Positions 8,780-33,013 of a DNA stretch of 36,930 nt are shown piece after piece. The position numbers were made by a program, and so were the translations under genes. The notes beneath the pieces are model-generated. The model did not search any database and was not told the origin of the DNA. It saw only the letters and a program-made list of their open reading frames with translations. Numbering within the stretch: the first letter of the stretch is position 1; every line of letters starts with the position of its first letter. This DNA comes from a virus, in IMG/VR virus record IMGVR_UViG_3300024346_000224, positions 1-36,930 of that record; one strand, given 5' to 3'.

Positions 8780-8792
8780 TGCAAGGCTGAAG

Positions 8793-8819
8793 AAAGATCA
8801 CTTTATGTGGTCTTTTTTT
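8793..8819 (+). terminator. Rho-independent terminator
   Basis: AAAGATCAC (8793-8801) pairs with GTGGTCTTT (8807-8815) over nine positions, with one T-G wobble and a 5-nt loop. The stem is followed by further T residues to 8819. It ends the replication and recombination operon just after the ribbon-helix-helix gene. Confidence 0.8.
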
Positions 8820-8856
8820 GACTTAAATGTTGAAACGTGTTTTTTTGTGTTAGGAT
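8818..8856 (+). promoter_or_regulatory. Possible promoter for accessory gene cluster
   Basis: TTGACT at 8818-8823 begins within the terminator T tract. TTGAAA at 8830-8835 and TAGGAT at 8851-8856 form a second candidate with a short 15-bp spacer. Neither pair is ideal. A promoter is expected here because a strong terminator ends the preceding operon and the genes from 8863 onward overlap each other. Confidence 0.3.
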
Positions 8857-26964: not shown

Positions 26965-27170
26965 GATTTGGCTTTTTTGCTTACAACCACCACTTCAACG
27001 GGGTTGTACTTCGACAACAAACGCAATGCCACGCCTTCAGCCGAATCGGCATCAGCGGTCAACAATGCGGCAGCAACTTCGTTGGCATCAACCGATGAAA
27101 ACCTGGCGATTAAGTCCAAGTCTCCATTGGCTGATACCAACCCCTCAACCACTTGGTCAAGGGTTTCCAT
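26961..27170 (-). CDS. Hypothetical small protein after tail tube gene (69 aa)
   Basis: No family is recognised. The sequence has a helical N-terminus (METLDQVVEGLVSANGDLDL), an Ala-rich acidic middle and a strand-rich basic end (VEVVVVSKKAKS). The frame extends to 27224, but the ATG at 27170 overlaps the tube gene stop (TAATG) and follows GGAG, so I start there. Confidence 0.65.
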   Translation of the reverse strand: METLDQVVEGLVSANGDLDLIARFSSVDANEVAAALLTADADSAEGVALRLLSKYNPVEVVVVSKKAKS

Positions 27171-27688
27171 TACGTGTTGCTCCAGCCGTACTGACCACCG
27201 CGAGGGTGTACGGTGAACACGCATTTGGCTTCAGCACCAGGTTGAGCATCAATCTGGAACTGGCTGACACGACCATTGAATGCATAGGCAATCGTGCTGG
27301 CACCGCTGACAGCGGCAACAACGAAGGTGCGGTCAATGATGCCACTGATAGCGTCACCGCGAATCAACAGCAAACCGGCGTCCGAAGGATTCCAAGCGGC
27401 GGTAATGGTCATGCTGGTGGGAGCCGACTGAACCGGCACTTTGTCCGATTGACGGGCGCCTGCGACACTGAAGTTTGCCACTGCGTCGTCCTGGCCAAAG
27501 GCTGGGACTGCTTCCACGTTCAGCGCGGTGCCTGCTGCGCCAGTGCCGTTTGCCACGGTGCCGACGATGGTGGCGACTTGAGCCGCCCAGACCGACAAGT
27601 TGGCGGTCGAGAGAGCAGAGGGCGTAGCGCCCGACTGCATCCACATTGAGGCACTAAAGCCTGGGAGAATAACTGCTGGTGCTGCCAT
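27170..27688 (-). CDS. Tail tube protein, second paralogue (172 aa)
   Basis: It begins with LPGFSASMWMQSG and holds PAFGQDDAVANFSVAGARQS, APTSMTITAAWNPSDAG and GRVSQFQIDAQPGAEAK, all nearly identical in the adjacent upstream gene. The beta-rich core, size and position before the chaperone and tape measure genes identify a major tail tube subunit. The two copies differ mainly in an N-terminal loop (a Gly/Thr/Ala-rich insertion near residues 40-52 here) and in the region around residue 120. TAGGAGT precedes the ATG at 27688. It may be an alternative tube isoform. Confidence 0.8.
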   Translation of the reverse strand: MAAPAVILPGFSASMWMQSGATPSALSTANLSVWAAQVATIVGTVANGTGAAGTALNVEAVPAFGQDDAVANFSVAGARQSDKVPVQSAPTSMTITAAWNPSDAGLLLIRGDAISGIIDRTFVVAAVSGASTIAYAFNGRVSQFQIDAQPGAEAKCVFTVHPRGGQYGWSNT

Positions 27689-27703: not shown

Positions 27704-28198
27704 TTAAGCGTTGTTCGACCAGCCGTACAGATTGCCACGGGGGTGGATCGTGTAAACGGCTTTGGCTTCTGCACCGGGCTGTGCGTCGATTTGGAATTGC
27801 GACACGCGACCAATGAAGGCGTAGTAAACGATGTTGGTGCCATCGGTGGCAGCGATCACAAAGGTGCGATCCACAGTGCCGCTGTAGGCGTCTGTGCGAA
27901 GCAACAAGGTCACGGCATCAGAGGGATTCCAAGCTGCGGTGATGGTCATCGAAGTTGGGGCCGACTGAGCGGGGATTTTGTCGCTTTGACGAGAACCAGC
28001 AACCGAGAAGGATGCAACGGCATCGTCTTGACCAAAAGCTGGGATTGCCTCAATGTTCATCAGATTGCCAGAAACAGCAATAGGAGAAACACTGGCGACC
28101 AAAGACAATTGAGCCAAAGTCAAGGGCGTAGGCGAAGCCAAAGGCTGGGCATACATCGAGGCACTAAAGCCTGGGAGAATTTTATTGGGTAAAGCCAT
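27704..28198 (-). CDS. Tail tube protein, first paralogue (164 aa)
   Basis: This is the first of two tandem tail tube genes. Core blocks PAFGQDDAVASFSVAGSRQS, TSMTITAAWNPSDA and GRVSQFQIDAQPGAEAK match the neighbour almost residue for residue, and the C-terminus is also shared (HPRG...YGWSN). GAAGGAAA stands before the ATG at 28198, a strong ribosome binding site fitting high expression. It lies directly after the tail terminator gene. Which copy is the main tube subunit cannot be told from sequence. Confidence 0.82.
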   Translation of the reverse strand: MALPNKILPGFSASMYAQPLASPTPLTLAQLSLVASVSPIAVSGNLMNIEAIPAFGQDDAVASFSVAGSRQSDKIPAQSAPTSMTITAAWNPSDAVTLLLRTDAYSGTVDRTFVIAATDGTNIVYYAFIGRVSQFQIDAQPGAEAKAVYTIHPRGNLYGWSNNA

Positions 28199-29671: not shown

Positions 29672-30712
29672 TTACGTCTCGATCAATCGAACGCCAGCAA
29701 ACGGGTCGCGCACGGAACTGACCATACGTTTCTCTGCGTACAGAGTAACGAAGCCGGGGGTCGTTTGTTCCATTGCTTGGACAGTCATTTCTTCAACATC
29801 GCAGATGTTGAGGAATCGAGGCCAGTTCGCCAGGTACACGGGGATTGCTCCGTCTGTACCGGTTGCGTCAAGGTAGGGGTTCGGGATGACGGGGAAGCCA
29901 AGAATGTTGACCGCTGGGCCTTCGCCAAGCTCACCAGTTTCAACCAAAGAGTAACCACCAGCGCCGTGAGCGTATTGACGGATTGCGCTGATGTAGCTGG
30001 GGTGCATCTGCCAAGCAGTTCCGGGCATATTCCAGTATTGAGGCGGCAATGCCTCTGCCATCTCAGCCAACGACTCATAGTCCACTGAGGTGTGAAGGTG
30101 CCCAACGGTAGCCAAGGTGTGCAGGCCATTGGTGATGCTGGTTCCAGACGTTCCGAAGGCCGCTGTAGCGCCCGCAGCGCCAGGGTAGCTGTTCAGGCCA
30201 CGCAAGCCGTCAGTGCCGCCAGTGGTCGTGGTGGTAGTTCCAGCCTGGTCATCGTTCAGGCCCATTGAGGCGCCTTCGATAGCCGCGAATTCCATCATCA
30301 GGTCTTCGACCAATTCAGACTCAAGGCCATTGATGTCGGACATGGCTGCGGTGCGGATCGGCAACTGAGCCGTGATCACGCGAGTGGGCAATTGCCAGAT
30401 CGTGGTGTTGGTGCCTGGCGTGCCGCTGTTGGGGGTAAACGTGTAGCCCCAAGGGTTTGTTTGGTTTGCCGCATTACCGGTCTTGGCTACGAATTGGGCG
30501 CTGGAGCCAGCAACTTTTTTCTGCCGCGCATAAACACGGAATGGGTTTGCATATCGCAGTGCTGCGAATGCGTCATCAAAATAAGTCTTACCACCTTGTC
30601 CATCGCCGCTGCCACCCAACGAGGCTGCTTCGCGCAAATCAATGGTGATTTTTTCTCCGGTTTCCAGAGTTTGTTTAACGCCGTCGAGGATTTTTTCGGT
30701 AATGGTTTTCAT
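29672..30712 (-). CDS. HK97-type major capsid protein, second paralogue (346 aa)
   Basis: This protein is homologous over its length to the product of the upstream capsid gene: both share GDGQGG-K/R-T, ALR-x-AN, a WGY box, Q-x-PIRTAA, GGTDGLRGLN and AFGTSGT. It lacks the roughly 100-residue N-terminal coiled-coil found in the first copy: here GSGDGQGG is near 34-41, against 111-117 there. A lattice of two HK97 folds is implied, or one copy may serve a special position such as the vertices. The ATG at 30712 follows GGAAG; a TTG at 30724 is the alternative. A cUUCGg hairpin separates it from the first copy. Confidence 0.85.
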   Translation of the reverse strand: MKTITEKILDGVKQTLETGEKITIDLREAASLGGSGDGQGGKTYFDDAFAALRYANPFRVYARQKKVAGSSAQFVAKTGNAANQTNPWGYTFTPNSGTPGTNTTIWQLPTRVITAQLPIRTAAMSDINGLESELVEDLMMEFAAIEGASMGLNDDQAGTTTTTTGGTDGLRGLNSYPGAAGATAAFGTSGTSITNGLHTLATVGHLHTSVDYESLAEMAEALPPQYWNMPGTAWQMHPSYISAIRQYAHGAGGYSLVETGELGEGPAVNILGFPVIPNPYLDATGTDGAIPVYLANWPRFLNICDVEEMTVQAMEQTTPGFVTLYAEKRMVSSVRDPFAGVRLIET

Positions 30713-30739
30713 GGTTTCTTCCAAGTTAGTTTCACCAAT

Positions 30740-30761
30740 AAGAGGGGCCGAAGCCCCCCTT
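30740..30761 (-). terminator. Strong cUUCGg hairpin between the two capsid genes (attenuator or processing site)
   Basis: On the minus strand AAGGGGGGC (30761-30753) pairs with GCCCCTCTT (30748-30740) around the tetraloop TTCG, giving nine base pairs with one G-U wobble. The cUUCGg loop is exceptionally stable. Only a weak U-containing tail (TCTTATT) follows, so it may terminate part of the transcripts, block 3' decay, or guide processing. In each case it would set different yields for the two capsid proteins. Confidence 0.75.
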
Positions 30762-30774
30762 AAAGTATCTGCAA

Positions 30775-32121
30775 TTAAGCAGCAGCAGTGCCGGTCGAGC
30801 GGAAACGCACCAGGGCGTTAGGATCGCGCACCGAAGTTGCCAGACGCTTCTCACCGTAGAAGGTGATGTAGCCAGGCAGGGTCTGGTCATAGCGACGCAT
30901 CACCATGTTCAGGCGGTCGATAATCGTGTGACCACGAGTCCAGTCGCCGAAGAACATTGGGTACTTGCTCACAGTGCCAGCCGCGCCGGTAGCCAGTTGG
31001 CTTGGTGCGTCCAGATACTTGTTCATGACCACATCAAAGCCCAACAACTGACCAATGATGCCATTGGGATTCAACGACTCAGTGGAGTTAAAAATTGGAC
31101 GACCATTGGTGTCTTGCAGGCCACGGATGGCTTGAGCAAGAATTGGGCTGACCATGAAACGCGCACTTTCCGTCCAATACTGTTGAGGCAGAGCGTAGAT
31201 CGTGTTGATCACGTCTTTGTACTGGATGTTGTTTGCGCCAACGGTGTTTGCATTGGTGGTCAACTGGTCGTAGGTTGCCAAACTGTGCAAGCCAGTCGTG
31301 GAACCAGTACCGGAAGTACCAAATGCGGGAGTGGAGGTCGTGCCGCCAGTGTAGGTTGCGTTTGCGCCAGGGTACTGGTTCAAGCCACGCAGACCATCAG
31401 CGCCGCCAGTAGCCACGGTAGAACCGGTGCCAGTTTGGTCGTTGTTGGAAATCATGGATTGAGCTTCAGACTGGGCGAACTCAGCCAGCATGTCGTCAAC
31501 GATGTTGGCTTCCAGGCCGTCGATGTCGTCCAGAGCCGCAGTACGGATCGGGAACTGCACATTGATGTCCTTGAGAACCAATTGCCAGATGCTGGTGTTT
31601 TCAGTGGTAGGCGTGCCGTTGTTTTGAACAGCGTAACCCCATTGAGCGCCAGCATTGCCGGTCTTCACGCGGAACTGATAGCTGGAGCCATCGGTAGCCA
31701 CGGTGCGAGACAGACCACGCATTTGGTTAGCCAAACGCAGAGCGACGAACACAGGGTCGTAGCTAGTGCGTCCACCTTGACCATCACCGCCAGCGGTCAG
31801 GCCAGCAGCTTCTTTCAAGTAGGCGTCGTACTGATCGGTGCTTTCAAACATCTTCAGTTCTTTTTCGCCTTGACGGCCTTTGTAGTACGTGGACAGTTGC
31901 TCACGCACAGCACGGTTGACATCGCCGCGAACGGTCTTGGCAATATTGATGACGGGGGCAGCTTGCACGGAGGCTACTTTGGCTTCCAGGGCGGCAACCA
32001 TTACAGCCATTTCAGCTTTTACAGCTTCCACGGCGGCGGGGATTTTGGCTTCAACAGCCGACACAGCTTCAGCCTGCTTGGCTTCAATTGCGTCCAGTTT
32101 TTCTAGGATCACTTGAGACAT
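30775..32121 (-). CDS. HK97-type major capsid protein, first paralogue with delta-like coiled coil (448 aa)
   Basis: Residues 1-60 are a Glu/Lys/Ala/Val coiled coil (KLDAIEAKQAEAVSAVEAKI and onward), corresponding to the HK97 delta domain that acts as internal scaffold and is removed by the prohead protease encoded just upstream. The HK97 fold follows: GGDGQGGRTSYDPVFVALRL, then PIRTAALDDIDGLEANIVDD, and a C-terminal GYITFYGEKRLATSVRDPNA. AAAGG precedes the ATG. Presence of scaffold domain and place after the protease suggest this is the main shell subunit. Confidence 0.92.
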   Translation of the reverse strand: MSQVILEKLDAIEAKQAEAVSAVEAKIPAAVEAVKAEMAVMVAALEAKVASVQAAPVINIAKTVRGDVNRAVREQLSTYYKGRQGEKELKMFESTDQYDAYLKEAAGLTAGGDGQGGRTSYDPVFVALRLANQMRGLSRTVATDGSSYQFRVKTGNAGAQWGYAVQNNGTPTTENTSIWQLVLKDINVQFPIRTAALDDIDGLEANIVDDMLAEFAQSEAQSMISNNDQTGTGSTVATGGADGLRGLNQYPGANATYTGGTTSTPAFGTSGTGSTTGLHSLATYDQLTTNANTVGANNIQYKDVINTIYALPQQYWTESARFMVSPILAQAIRGLQDTNGRPIFNSTESLNPNGIIGQLLGFDVVMNKYLDAPSQLATGAAGTVSKYPMFFGDWTRGHTIIDRLNMVMRRYDQTLPGYITFYGEKRLATSVRDPNALVRFRSTGTAAA

Positions 32122-32902: not shown

Positions 32903-33013
32903 TGATTACTCCATCAACTTTGGTTCTGTCAATGTCATATGTTGTGATGGATTTTTTCTTCACACGCAGCATTTGGCGTGCAAAGAATTGTTTGATTGTA
33001 TCCTGCAAAATGA

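Follow-up and report, generated by a model that had tools for sequence, protein, structure and literature searches.

The late region of this lake-type phage raises the question of why two neighbouring capsid genes should be separated by a strong RNA hairpin, and what that hairpin might do there. The window, by which we mean the whole 36.9-kb IMG/VR virus record analysed here, carries its late genes on the minus strand in the order TerS, TerL, portal, protease, MCP1, MCP2, connector and tail genes. An initial annotation of this DNA had proposed that the hairpin, by partial termination or mRNA processing, yields unequal amounts of the two capsid proteins. The features on which the present analysis turns are as follows.

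30775-32121, minus strand: MCP1, 448 aa, main HK97-fold capsid protein (PF05065, 5e-29; phrog_10 major head protein)
30739-30762, minus strand: stem-loop TAAGGGGGGCUUCGGCCCCUCUUA, predicted to fold into a 10-bp stem with one G-U pair and a UUCG tetraloop
30733-30741, minus strand: weak U-rich tail TTATTGGTG after the G+C core of the stem, longest T run 2
30718-30722, minus strand: probable MCP2 ribosome-binding site GGAAG, from sequence, outside the hairpin
29672-30712, minus strand: MCP2, 346 aa, second HK97-fold capsid paralogue (PF05065, 7e-17)

The hairpin and its flanking capsid genes

Both flanking proteins match PF05065 and are 42% identical (41.8% over 359 alignment columns), confirming that the hairpin lies between capsid paralogues as had been assumed. 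The same alignment places an N-terminal extension of about 75-100 aa in MCP1 that is absent from MCP2. In HK97-type proteins such an extension could be a scaffolding domain, and a vertex subunit is one candidate for the role of MCP2 in the head. AlphaFold2 models of the two proteins were poor, with a mean pLDDT of 36.7 for MCP1 and 50.7 for MCP2. Among annotated phage records, the two capsid genes were found together only in Methylophilaceae phage P19250A, in which the gene order is identical to that of the window and the capsid proteins are 59% and 53% identical. No close relatives of MCP2 turned up when reference genomes of bacteria and archaea were scanned, and a search of the open-access literature found no report of the hairpin or of the two-MCP arrangement in P19250A-like phages.

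Read from 30762 to 30739 on the coding (minus) strand, the hairpin is TAAGGGGGGC-UUCG-GCCCCUCUUA, with the loop closed by a C-G pair. The stem that had been described is real, but it comprises ten pairs rather than nine, the outermost U-A having been left out. It does fall inside the 62-nt gap separating MCP1 from MCP2, although not exactly midway but closer to MCP1, since the stem starts 12 nt past the MCP1 stop and ends 26 nt ahead of the MCP2 ATG. On its own the hairpin scores -17.0. The 86-nt region around it has a minimum free energy of -27.8 (z -2.5), and 2 of 200 shuffles were equally stable. A search of the window against Rfam gave no family match at the gathering score. The G+C-rich stem-loop characteristic of an intrinsic terminator is present in the RNA of the strand that encodes the late genes. 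The lack of a strong U tail, already pointed out in the initial annotation, is correct for the window genome, where the first three bases of the tail also pair within the outer A-U part of the stem. The terminator score of the window, obtained on the identical sequence L001, is marginal (d = +2.6).

Most of the late genes had been described as overlapping or nearly touching, which is broadly right, although the portal-protease gap measures 111 nt. That gap contains a hairpin of its own (-14.7; 32956-32987, minus strand), and a hairpin at this junction occurs in 1% of relatives.

Conservation among relatives

Relatives were gathered from IMG/VR with MCP1, MCP2 and portal queries, and the gap downstream of MCP1 was searched for hairpins at a cut-off of -11 kcal/mol with a finder whose loop limit is 9 nt. 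This yielded 248 distinct MCP1 downstream gaps with a readable junction, a set that includes near relatives, so that the counts are not counts of independent events. A hairpin was present in 248 of the 248. It reached -11 kcal/mol or better in 245 and -10.9 in one, while the remaining two (L300 and L302, each with an 8-bp stem and a 10-nt loop) were scored low by the finder and read by eye. The first set of relatives had already given 93 out of 93, and the hairpin-bearing relatives extend down to 57% MCP1 identity with the window. At the same cut-off, hairpins were detected in 6.7% of shuffled gaps and in 0-8% of flanking windows. Behind the other head genes the hairpin fraction was 0 for TerL, 0.01 for portal, 0 for protease, 0.13 for MCP2 and 0 for connector.

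When the stem was compared in 20 relatives on the same side of the family as the window, double compensatory changes were seen at seven of the ten pairs. In these relatives 96.5% of the alignment cells were paired, and 32 cells were double-changed versus 10.6 in shuffles. A covariation score of 0.60 dropped to 0.23-0.26 when the partner was shifted by one column. The expectation that the stem would be kept, with compensatory changes, in relatives retaining both capsid genes was therefore borne out. The letters themselves are fluid, with 177 distinct core sequences across the whole set. The initial annotation had singled out the UUCG tetraloop as extra-stable, and here the comparison points the other way. 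Among 246 scored relatives the loop belongs to the UNCG type in only 28 and to the GNRA type in 94, with the remainder of other types, and a special importance of UUCG was accordingly rejected. What is conserved is where the hairpin lies and how it folds, whereas its letters and loop type, UUCG included, vary.

A leaky terminator and its alternatives

Across relatives, T makes up 70-81% of the first six bases after the stem (+1 to +6) and drops to 31-47% beyond them. Judged from these sequences, the family shows the coding-strand profile of an intrinsic terminator, and we take from this family-wide U tract that termination is probably part of the hairpin's job. The longest T run is four or more in 163 of 246 relatives, and a d'Aubenton-Carafa type terminator score is above 0 in 147 of them. 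Positive scores are unevenly spread. They amount to 7 of 14 in the window's close clade, which shares its weak tail, and to 36 of 39 in the identity band that follows.

We consider it likely, though well short of certain, that the hairpin acts as an intrinsic (factor-independent) terminator of the leaky kind, immediately downstream of the main capsid gene in the late operon. An RNA polymerase transcribing the head genes would meet a G+C hairpin and a U-rich stretch right past the MCP1 stop. Some polymerases would release at that point, giving many transcripts that end after MCP1, while the others would continue through MCP2 to the connector and tail genes. The expected outcome is more MCP1 mRNA than MCP2 and tail mRNA, and the hairpin at the 3' end would also protect the MCP1 message against 3' exonucleases. 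In the window's lineage the weak U tract would allow more readthrough than in many relatives. Partial termination is the likeliest form because a full terminator would silence everything beyond it, from MCP2 and the connector to the tail genes, if no promoter inside MCP1 served them. From the end of the stem to the MCP2 ATG the distance has a median of 24 nt and a 5-95% range of 16-30 nt in 172 relatives, which leaves no room for a promoter. We infer that the hairpin terminates, how much it does so, and that unequal dosage is the benefit under selection. Against termination stand the poor U tract of the window and the 33 of 246 relatives whose longest T run is two or less. Moreover, a quick MCP1 tree implies at least 26 switches between strong and weak U tails (37 by parsimony) while the hairpin is lost in no sampled lineage, and so the hairpin may be useful without efficient termination.

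This last pattern is what would be expected of an mRNA processing or stability element, in which the polymerase is not stopped but 3'-5' exonucleases are blocked after a downstream cut and the MCP1 segment outlives the rest. Such an element would account for a hairpin that stays invariant as its U tail comes and goes, for the many stable tetraloops of the GNRA and UNCG types and for the weak U tract of the window. It also has a precedent in the Rhodobacter puf operon, where mRNA segments of differing stability are reported to contribute to the stoichiometry of a complex (PMC6238624). It leaves unexplained, however, why T enrichment is limited to the first six bases after the stem, and no cleavage site was identified. 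As a replacement for termination we regard it as unlikely, although protection of the mRNA 3' end may be either the main rival or a second role of the same hairpin.

Less probable still is a terminator that is fully read through under late antitermination, and that serves only to stop stray transcription with no part in the capsid ratio. The same option has been raised for the intra-operon terminators of phage L (PMC8022706), but it offers no clear reason why the structure should be confined to the MCP1 junction when the other head genes lack it. The position of the hairpin within the MCP2 leader might suggest control of MCP2 translation, with the ribosome-binding site hidden or presented by the stem. 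We judge this very improbable because GGAAG lies outside the stem, about 16 nt past it; the distance from stem to ATG is also variable, and the U-tract enrichment would go unexplained. A chance palindrome, or a module boundary or recombination site acting at the DNA level, has an equally negligible probability: a hairpin of this strength does turn up about once per strand of a shuffled genome (0-3 in each of eight shuffles), and it is conservation with compensatory change in the relatives, not strength, that refutes chance, while the unconserved primary sequence and the T tail on the coding strand speak against a DNA site.

The capsid ratio and comparison with known systems

With a leaky terminator as the preferred reading, it can be asked whether the hairpin specifically sets the MCP1:MCP2 ratio, as the initial annotation had suggested. 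Of that interpretation, the functional RNA hairpin is upheld by compensatory change and termination is made probable by the U tract. The ratio setting itself may be correct and is plausible, but the evidence does not single it out. As a new promoter would not fit into the gap, partial termination would lower every downstream late gene and not MCP2 alone. The hairpin could equally be a generic post-capsid terminator of the kind carried by phages T7 and LUZ100. Since both of these also have a terminator behind the capsid gene, post-capsid terminator is the simpler label.

A relative with MCP1 and no MCP2 would separate the two readings. None was found at loci offering 900 nt of room or more, even in searches that took the most distant MCP1, MCP2 or the portal as their starting point, and a paralogue-ratio device and a generic terminator are consequently inseparable in this set. 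In 16 cases MCP2 appeared to lie far from MCP1. Nine examples were looked at, and in these a separation of the two genes was rejected, as the distance reflected an added N-terminal or inserted domain and the hairpin was still beside MCP1. The relatives L206, L222 and L228 have an extra MCP2 N-terminal domain of about 100 aa (MPKPTQAMKEEAQRGLDWRKEF...) just after the hairpin, which gave no Pfam match in the one tested, L222. L146, L157, L171, L180, L220 and L268 carry an insertion of about 60 aa inside MCP2 that is rich in T, G and V and is possibly a surface-exposed domain; the one tested, L146, gave no separate Pfam match for it.

The window contains a second pair of adjacent paralogues, two tail-tube-like proteins at 27170-27688 and 27704-28198 on the minus strand, the first of which matches phrog_158 major tail protein. 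They are 65% identical and 15 nt apart, and a hairpin follows the first in 4% of relatives. This junction being mostly hairpin-free, a hairpin is not simply a by-product of gene duplication. P19250A, as annotated, has one gene of tail-tube-like length at this place, and the duplication in the window may therefore be local.

Comparison with characterized phages places the hairpin in a familiar position. T7 has the stem-loop Tphi, located between genes 10B and 11 and described as an inefficient terminator (PMC3276506). As with the present hairpin, the major capsid gene lies immediately upstream, and late genes that are still required follow on the same strand. The likeness is one of anatomy and position. 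Tphi serves a phage-coded single-subunit RNA polymerase and is followed by a tail gene, whereas the window has a capsid paralogue there. LUZ100 has an apparent strong terminator immediately after the MCP gene, reported as 'similar to T7' (PMC10134795); that terminator was mapped experimentally, in a T7-like podovirus with a local phage promoter for its MCP gene. The P22-like phage L likewise has a terminator inside a late operon with a single promoter, for which partial termination was proposed and the role stated to be unknown (PMC8022706). It differs from ours in lying at the end of the whole procapsid module, and it is predicted only. The puf hairpin region, between pufA and pufL, resembles the present case in separating genes whose proteins are needed in unequal amounts. 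It acts with RNase E by mRNA stability and not by termination (PMC6238624), and is the best model for mRNA protection as a rival.

Post-capsid phage terminators are already known as a kind of control element, and the hairpin described here is most likely a further example. What began as a guess from one sequence now has good support as a regulatory element conserved throughout a phage group that has been little studied, and it bears on terminators inside phage late operons, whose role is an acknowledged open point (PMC8022706). Because the stem stays constant across the group while the strength of the U tract differs, its members form a natural series, and one of them, P19250A, is in culture. 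The hairpin further draws attention to an unstudied pair of capsid paralogues. A broader proposal, which we put forward tentatively and consider rather unlikely, is that these aquatic phages build heads from two HK97-fold paralogues with an attenuator between the genes that has no known exception, is fixed in place and fold and fluid in sequence, and whose U-tract length tunes the MCP1:MCP2 ratio of a two-component capsid.

Several other features were observed elsewhere in the window. Positions 1-55, at the start of the contig, consist of a tandem repeat with the 11-base unit cctgggcggtg. Many repeats resembling GGTTACC or GTTACCAG occupy 460-580 and could be replication-origin repeats; a 29-nt hairpin, GGTAACCCCTTCTAAAGAAGGGGGTTACC, lies among the GGTTACC-like repeats at 469-497. 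At 8785-8823 on the plus strand a stem-loop with a run of seven T (AAAGATCACTTTATGTGGTCTTTTTTT) is a possible terminator of plus-strand genes.
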